Origin: Synechococcus sp. A18-25c
GTDB taxonomy: Bacteria; Cyanobacteriota; Cyanobacteriia; PCC-6307; Cyanobiaceae
NCBI RefSeq assembly: GCF_014280035.1
Contig: NZ_CP047957.1
Coordinates: forward strand, 682,001-746,000
Length of the DNA: 64,000 nt
Direction of reading: 5' to 3'
In this document: piece after piece, positions 5,134 through 33,600 of the stretch
Layout of the letters: every line of letters begins with the position of its first letter
Numbering within the stretch: the first letter of the stretch is position 1
Translations under genes and position numbers: made by a program
The notes under the pieces: model-generated
Told to the model about the DNA's origin: nothing
What the model saw: the letters and a program-made list of their open reading frames with translations, nothing else
Database searches by the model: none

Positions 5134-5173
5134 GCCTCGTCTCATCTTTCGCAGGTCCCCCGCGATCTGCTAA

Positions 5174-5536
<363 letters not shown>

Positions 5537-32620: not shown

Positions 32621-32644
32621 AATTAAGAATTACTGGGTTTGGGC

Positions 32645-32872
32645 ATGCTCACTGCCGGAGTGGATCATCAGGACCTCGCCAAGCGCGGAGAAAGCCTGAT
32701 CCGTCAGTCCAGCAACCGCTATCTGACGACAGTGCGGATTGCCTTTCGCGCCAAGCAGCGTCGCTTTGATGACTTCGACGGGCTCTTGGAAGAGTCCAGT
32801 GTCAAGCCGGTGCAACGCGCCATTGTTGAACTCAGCGATGAGCAAGACCAGCCTGACCTTCTGCCTGGATGA
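32645..32872 (+). CDS. rpoZ: RNA polymerase omega subunit
   Basis: A 75-residue cyanobacterial omega subunit. The segments [40 protein letters not shown] and [19 protein letters not shown] are characteristic. The start ATG 32645 gives the usual length; a TTG two codons earlier is possible. Its stop overlaps the next ATG by four bases (ATGA), so it is translationally coupled to the DUF1818 gene. Confidence 0.97.
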
Positions 32873-33249
32873 TTCAGCAGGAGGGGCCGGGCTGGAGGTT
32901 GGCCCGTGATCCGCAGCGTTCAGGCTTCCCCGTGCTGATTGGAGGGGAAACCTGGGCTCTGGAACTTACCGAGACGGAAGCCTGCGCGTTGGCTTCCGTT
33001 TTGCGAAAACTTGTCGATCAGCACAGGTGCATCAGGGATCAGTTGATGCCGGATGAGGCGATCACGCTTGAGTTGGAGAACTCAGAGTGGTGGGCATGCC
33101 TGGATGGAGACTGCTCCACTTGGTCTTTGAGGGTGATTTTGAGTGCTGGCTCCTCCGGAGTCCGTGGCTTGGAAGTGCGCTGGCCGGCGCCCGCCGCTCA
33201 GGCGATGGCCGCGGCGATGAGAACCATGTGGGACAGCTGTCATGATTAG
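32869..33249 (+). CDS. DUF1818 family protein
   Basis: A 126-residue protein. The N-terminal [31 protein letters not shown], read in parts, and the later [21 protein letters not shown] fit the cyanobacterial DUF1818 family, which is structurally whirly-like as I recall and of unknown role. It overlaps the rpoZ stop by four bases. That constant link with rpoZ hints at a transcription-related function, but this is inference. Confidence 0.8.
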
Positions 33250-33600
33250 GGCAGCTAATGAATCGTCTCTGATTGATTTTCCCCGGAGATTCCCCATGAC
33301 TCTGGGATGGTTTTCCACAGGCTTGGTACTTAGTTGGTCCATTCGATGGGGCTCTGTGGAAAACCCGCTTTGCGGTTGGTTGGTTGGTTGACGAATGTTC
33401 GACCTGCCTCTTCTGGCTTGACTCGTGAAAATCGCAGGCTGGAAACAGTTCCAGCTGCTGAAGTCTTGATGTGAGACGGCTTGAGAAGAGGCTTTTTCGG
33501 CGCCTTGACTCCGGCGCCGGGATGTGGAGAACTAGTGCTCACTTGAGCGATACGAATGCAAGGAATTGGGCGGTTCCAAGGTTCACAGGCCAAAACGTCC
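33250..33600. other. Non-coding interval with inverted repeat, GGTT repeats and hairpin
   Basis: No convincing gene. It holds the 12-bp inverted repeat with DnaA-box-like arms (33309-33365), a (GGTT)4 run (33374-33389) and a 7-bp GC hairpin (33498-33504 with 33513-33519) that has no U-run after it. The concentration of structure is unusual for this compact genome. A non-coding RNA cannot be excluded. Confidence 0.5.
33309..33365. repeat. Perfect 12-bp inverted repeat carrying two DnaA-box-like motifs
   Basis: GGTTTTCCACAG (33309-33320) and CTGTGGAAAACC (33354-33365) are exact reverse complements separated by 33 bases. Each arm contains TTTTCCACA, the form of DnaA box known from cyanobacterial origins. 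No dnaA or dnaN gene is in the window, so this is not shown to be an origin. Confidence 0.6.

Follow-up and report, generated by a model that had tools for sequence, protein, structure and literature searches.

Both DnaA boxes and promoters under DnaA control have been described before, and several known systems come close to the locus reported here. In cyanobacteria, the 9-mer TTTTCCACA is the species-typical DnaA box, and DnaA domain IV binds it in EMSA, according to the accessible part of PMC4674748. In Escherichia coli, DARS1, DARS2, and datA combine several DnaA boxes at conserved spacing away from oriC (PMC4585315, sections available), and for Bacillus subtilis the accessible text of PMC7198777 cites eight intergenic DnaA-box regions. 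The same text records that some cyanobacteria have lost dnaA.

The locus compared here lies in a 64,000-nucleotide stretch (the window), positions 682001 to 746000 of a 2,511,360-bp genome. As far as the accessible part of PMC4674748 goes, it resembles the cyanobacterial oriC in using the same 9-mer, clustered and intergenic, but differs in that its boxes lie away from dnaN, are tied to a DUF2811 gene, and form either a fixed inverted pair or a phased direct array. The box core with conserved spacing and orientation that characterizes DARS and datA is also found in the pair and in the arrays; however, the boxes here go with a gene family, paralogs included, and the likeness to those sites, as they appear in the available sections of PMC4585315, is one of box layout. 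DnaA-regulated promoters of B. subtilis share a box cluster upstream of a gene with a candidate promoter downstream, whereas a cyanobacterial DUF2811 target, a class-wide array phased at ∼10.7 bp, and a gene mostly lost together with dnaA set the present case apart from the regions covered in the accessible text of PMC7198777. In the open-access papers searched, we found no description of this site, of a class-wide phased array tied to DUF2811, or of its co-loss with dnaA.

Results

The box pair sits in the gap between a DUF1818 gene (32869-33249, plus strand; Pfam E value, 2.5e-35), the upstream neighbor in part of the family, and a DUF2811 gene (PF10929; 33556-33870, plus strand; E value, 1.1e-26; start codon uncertain), which is the likely controlled gene. 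An rpoZ-like gene encoding RNA polymerase omega (32639-32872, plus strand; PF01192, E value, 4.8e-08) is a further upstream neighbor. The perfect 12-bp inverted repeat with two DnaA-box motifs described in the original prediction was recovered exactly: arm 1, GGTTTTCCACAG (33309-33320, plus strand), carries box 1 at 33311-33319, and arm 2, CTGTGGAAAACC (33354-33365, minus strand), carries the inverted box 2 at 33355-33363, the arms matching over all 12 bp. Both boxes are exact copies of TTTTCCACA, the published cyanobacterial 9-mer (PMC4674748, accessible part), which bears out the identity that the motifs had been given. Two weak box-like sequences on the plus strand, TTTTCCCCG (33277-33285) and, 11 bp farther on, GATTCCCCA (33288-33296), are putative counterparts of the weak boxes that lie in phase in the class array described below; the assignment of TTTTCCCCG is based on a TTCCCC element conserved in the family profile and on the weak boxes of the class loci. 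The (GGTT)4 run is present as described (33374-33389, plus strand), but it occurs in only 1 of 9 loci of the genus, and the G-quadruplex proposed for it found no support. By eye, a GC-rich hairpin-like stretch at 33490-33520 (TCGGCGCC...GGCGCCG) was seen 3′ of a T run, in the interval between the boxes and DUF2811. Elsewhere in the window, at 5148-5238 (plus strand), an Rfam ATPC RNA motif scored 73.6 bits, above its gathering score of 45.

The feature of the pair that goes beyond chance is its conserved arrangement, hardly the repeat or the motif count. The window holds two copies of TTTTCCACA, both in the pair, against a mean of 0.44 in shuffled sequences; since 8 of 100 shuffles reach two, this count alone is weak evidence. 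Bare 12-bp inverted repeats are not rare either, with six matches in a window scan at loops of up to 60 nucleotides, two of them overlapping. Genome-wide, no enrichment of TTTTCCACA was found (8 + 11 matches versus 7 + 9 for the reversed control). The random genome-wide distribution that was to count against the prediction thus holds for the total (19 versus 16) but not for the placement: 4 of the 19 copies fall into the three 600-bp stretches upstream of the DUF2811 genes, where ∼0.01 would be expected under an even spread. The pair TTTTCCACA-N20..50-TGTGGAAAA is present in 170 of 400 genomes of the family, nearly always once each, and in 29 of 31 rows from the genus of the window, with one row seen for the control pattern in the same 400 genomes (table read by eye). 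DNA similarity to the 306-bp gap region was detected in 9 of 60 genomes, our own included, and all nine loci have two opposed boxes measuring exactly 53 bp from end to end. Most family loci have pairs of 53 to 54 bp; those of genera g6 and g68 measure 66 to 67 bp and have DUF2811 as the common neighbor. The spacers of the family pair loci have no fixed sequence in common, and this combination of a fixed distance with a drifting spacer indicates that two protein-sized sites are kept, not a stem. Loci L001, L010-L039, and L070-L089 were fetched by boxes or gap DNA, so that box presence in them is partly by construction; L090-L119 came from 29 genomes chosen mostly for missing the exact inverted pair.

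The assignment of the pair to the downstream gene, DUF2811, is well supported by sequence comparison. A DUF2811 gene was found at 33 of the 39 pair loci (L001-L039, themselves fetched by their boxes). Two others are cut by a contig end with DUF1818 and rpoZ still visible (L012 and L039), one that is also cut (L037) resembles L036, and three (L023, L028, and L029) lie in something other than a DUF2811 neighborhood. In L028 and L029 (genus g47), an opposed box pair of 65 bp and a third box (1460-1606) occur without DUF2811 near an ORF that by eye looks like KaiB. Our genome has three DUF2811 genes, near 147,848, 715,670, and 1,205,872, and each is preceded by TTTTCCACA (147,560; 715,311 and 715,355; 1,205,522). 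The original prediction had looked for conservation downstream of rpoZ-DUF1818; the pair is indeed conserved in relatives, but rpoZ-DUF1818 is only its local neighborhood, and the constant partner is DUF2811. We dropped rpoZ-DUF1818 as the partner, both genes being missing in the g6 and g68 loci and in many paralog loci. Of the 145 cyanobacterial genomes sampled, 143 have a DUF2811 gene.

To a large extent, the boxes accompany DUF2811 across the class. In the best 30 loci of a DUF2811 search, picked by protein score regardless of boxes, TTTTCCACA occurs within 600 bp before the domain in 29, with 62 copies in the 18 kb upstream versus 7 in the other 77 kb; 200 permuted words averaged 0.18 upstream copies and never exceeded 3. 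A separate collection of 80 named loci gave the same picture, with TTTTCCACA upstream in 73 and 170 copies in 47 kb versus 9 in 157 kb, the permuted words averaging 0.49 and the worst of them reaching 15. DUF2811 loci that lack an exact box number 7 of 30 in the family, 1 of 30 in the class, and 7 of 80 in the named collection. In the named loci, adjacent direct boxes are spaced by 21 or 22 bp in 74 of 94 cases, and weaker boxes (up to two mismatches) before the last box peak at −21, −32, −42/43, −53/54, and −64/65, a period of ∼10.7 bp, i.e., one box per helical turn. In the class profile, an inverted weak box resembling TGGGGATTT is likewise conserved ∼45 bp past the last direct box, where it corresponds to box 2 of the window. 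Upstream of the array, 29 class loci have genes of 20 unrelated groups, and homologous arrays outside the family consist mainly of direct repeats. In g41 and several others, box 1 is still preceded, at 11 bp, by a weaker direct box. Given the class-wide array and its TGGGGATTT-like element, the pair in the window appears to be an ancient array in reduced form.

Downstream of the pair, TTGACG (33388-33393, plus strand) is a candidate −35 element of a DUF2811 promoter, proposed from the position of TTGAC in family loci. Of 53 family loci, 39 have TTGAC 74 to 78 nucleotides beyond the first position of box 1, and 5.3% of background 40-nucleotide bins hold one; it is missing from that position in all 10 g41 loci and in 4 others (14 of 53). 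In g6 and g68, box 2 is shifted by 12 to 14 bp and the distance from box 1 to TTGAC stays at 78 nucleotides. A TATA-like −10 element was recognized by eye in six of the TTGAC loci (L010, L019, L020, L022, L024, and L025); in our own genome, no clear −10 was seen near the candidate TTGACG. Box 2 lies upstream of the candidate −35, a position that fits activation better than blocking. With the boxes tied to DUF2811 and a candidate promoter just downstream, the DnaA regulatory site that the original prediction had listed among its options appears the favored one.

We compared DUF2811 and box retention between genomes with and without dnaA. A dnaA screen covered 388 genomes of one order, from which 32 negatives (17 genera, 10 families) and 18 positives were picked by eye, favoring completeness and shared genera. 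Because only four candidates were scored per genome, a few genomes may have been scored dnaA-negative in error; the label of G529 was confirmed with 10 candidates, and 19 genomes without a dnaA match do not appear among those scored. All 18 positives have DUF2811 (G785 by a partial match), whereas among the 32 negatives it is absent in 26, broken by stops in 2, and intact in 4 (G538, G636, G547, and G711). Within genera that include both dnaA states (g149, g183, and g215), all 6 positives have DUF2811, and 5 of 6 negatives have lost it or carry a broken copy. In the positives, DUF2811 is preceded by TTTTCCACA in 15 of 18 genomes and by TTATCCACA in one more, leaving 2 of 18 with no box; in the four negatives with an intact gene, a box is left in one. 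Retention of phased arrays likewise went with dnaA, with 13 of 18 positives having them versus 2 of 32 negatives. Fisher tests gave 4e-10 for DUF2811 and 2e-6 for the arrays, values that ignore shared descent. G547 (95% complete) keeps DUF2811 and has a phased box pair elsewhere in its genome, and its assembly may simply miss dnaA; G424 has dnaA and no DUF2811 match. The DUF2811 copies L225 (G825) and L227 (G701), from genomes scored dnaA-negative, carry in-frame stops and appear to be in recent decay. The usual loss of DUF2811 where DnaA is lost indicates that the two probably work together.

Direct box pairs in the 21/22-bp register are not confined to DUF2811; they occur in 103 of 145 class genomes, against 0 for the control in the rows inspected. 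Twenty further sites fetched from class genomes comprised seven at dnaN (L151, L152, L157, L158, L162, L165, and L167), one adjoining dnaA (L154), two at DUF2811 (L161 and L168), three others (L150, L163, and L164), and seven 3′ of a guaA-like gene, identified by Pfam in L153 and by eye in L155, L156, L159, L160, L166, and L169. The guaA-side cluster is conserved and consists of three direct DnaA boxes, mostly 20 to 22 bp apart. In some genomes its neighbor, a cation efflux or DUF3318 gene, is convergent, so that the cluster is not an obvious promoter; it is a candidate non-promoter DnaA control site. Picocyanobacterial dnaN regions (L040, L203, and L184-L202) have mostly one-mismatch boxes (TTTTCCACG, TTTTCCCCA, and ATTTCCACA), and in our genome no exact TTWTNCACA box was found within 12 kb after or 11 kb before the start of the record.

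AlphaFold2 models of DUF2811 show three helices at modest confidence (pLDDT, 68 and 65). Foldseek searches with these models returned no match below 1e-3; weak rows for the first model include NikR, ParD, SegB, and Reg576, which we take to be ribbon-helix-helix proteins, and such a fold for DUF2811 is a lead from modeling. A PDB sequence search gave one match at an E value of 0.25, and no paper naming DUF2811 was found among the open-access papers searched.

Discussion

We interpret the element as a DnaA-controlled regulatory region of DUF2811, with DUF2811 belonging to the DnaA pathway, and put the probability of this whole reading at roughly 0.7. Its parts differ in strength. DnaA very probably binds this locus, judging from published binding of the 9-mer in other cyanobacteria, and it probably controls DUF2811; that DUF2811 acts back on DnaA or on initiation is an even bet. 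In the mechanism that we envisage, DnaA would bind the perfect boxes and, in the ancestral form, would oligomerize from a strong box along weaker boxes of the same helical phase until bounded by the inverted box. The complex, just upstream of the promoter, could then make DUF2811 expression depend on free or ATP-bound DnaA. In picocyanobacteria, the array would have been reduced to two strong boxes, one direct and one inverted, at fixed spacing. Because few genomes keep DUF2811 without DnaA, we infer that the DUF2811 product works in the DnaA pathway; a small feedback regulator that closes the loop is the simplest guess and, given the joint loss, would be its most likely role.

The alternative that survives best is a DnaA titration or nucleotide-state site resembling datA or DARS, in which the DNA itself would be functional and DUF2811 merely its usual neighbor. 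Two perfect boxes far from oriC, at 0.165 to 0.366 of the genome from dnaN in the 16 genomes computed, would suit such a site, as would the mostly degenerate boxes beside dnaN in picocyanobacteria, the guaA-side cluster of other cyanobacteria, which lies partly between convergent genes, and the fact that DARS1 and DARS2 have three-box cores whose spacing is conserved (PMC4585315, sections available). However, the boxes go with the DUF2811 paralogs of our genome, which are unlinked and lie at three positions, their upstream neighbor varies, and DUF2811 itself is mostly lost with dnaA. Titration, named in the original prediction alongside regulation, is possible but unlikely, and ranks second to regulation of DUF2811.

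That the site belongs to another regulator and resembles a DnaA box by chance is improbable. The DnaA assignment at the window pair does derive from the match to TTTTCCACA, but this word is the published DnaA box, it is also clustered at dnaN, and few of the arrays persist in genomes lacking dnaA. Folding of the 12-bp arms into a structured RNA, a terminator, or a DNA cruciform is more improbable still. The sequence can fold (−30.3 kcal/mol), but its z-score is only −1.48, facing positions outside the 9-mers pair about as in shuffles (the 9-mers being invariant by search construction), homologous arrays are mainly direct repeats, and no Rfam family scored above its gathering threshold at the pair. 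We found no covarying stem, and the cruciform and small RNA of the original prediction were set aside as unsupported, along with the G-quadruplex. A replication origin, which DnaA boxes in an intergenic gap might suggest, is excluded for practical purposes by the position of dnaN (174 kb, versus 715 kb for the pair) and by GC skew over 20 sampled stretches plus the window, which changes sign near dnaN and at ∼1.3 to 1.5 Mb and not at the pair, in keeping with the earlier decision to make no oriC claim where dnaN is absent nearby.

A DnaA-controlled DUF2811 would have functional parallels. SirA, YabA, Hda, and DiaA are small regulators of DnaA, accessory proteins that matter only where DnaA is present. 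DUF2811 is likewise small and mostly occurs together with DnaA; no sequence or fold link to them emerged in the searches made here. More tentatively, and at slightly less than even odds, DUF2811 might be a cyanobacterium-specific DnaA regulator expressed from a DnaA-sensing phased-array promoter, in a loop kept even where the DnaA-oriC system is dispensable and perhaps constituting the main job remaining to DnaA.

These findings provide a first functional lead for the DUF2811 family and draw attention to the guaA side as another candidate DnaA site. With one conserved target gene, mostly lost together with dnaA, a cheap, direct test becomes available wherever dnaA can be deleted, and the unexplained role of DnaA in cyanobacteria that replicate without DnaA-oriC would thereby become testable.
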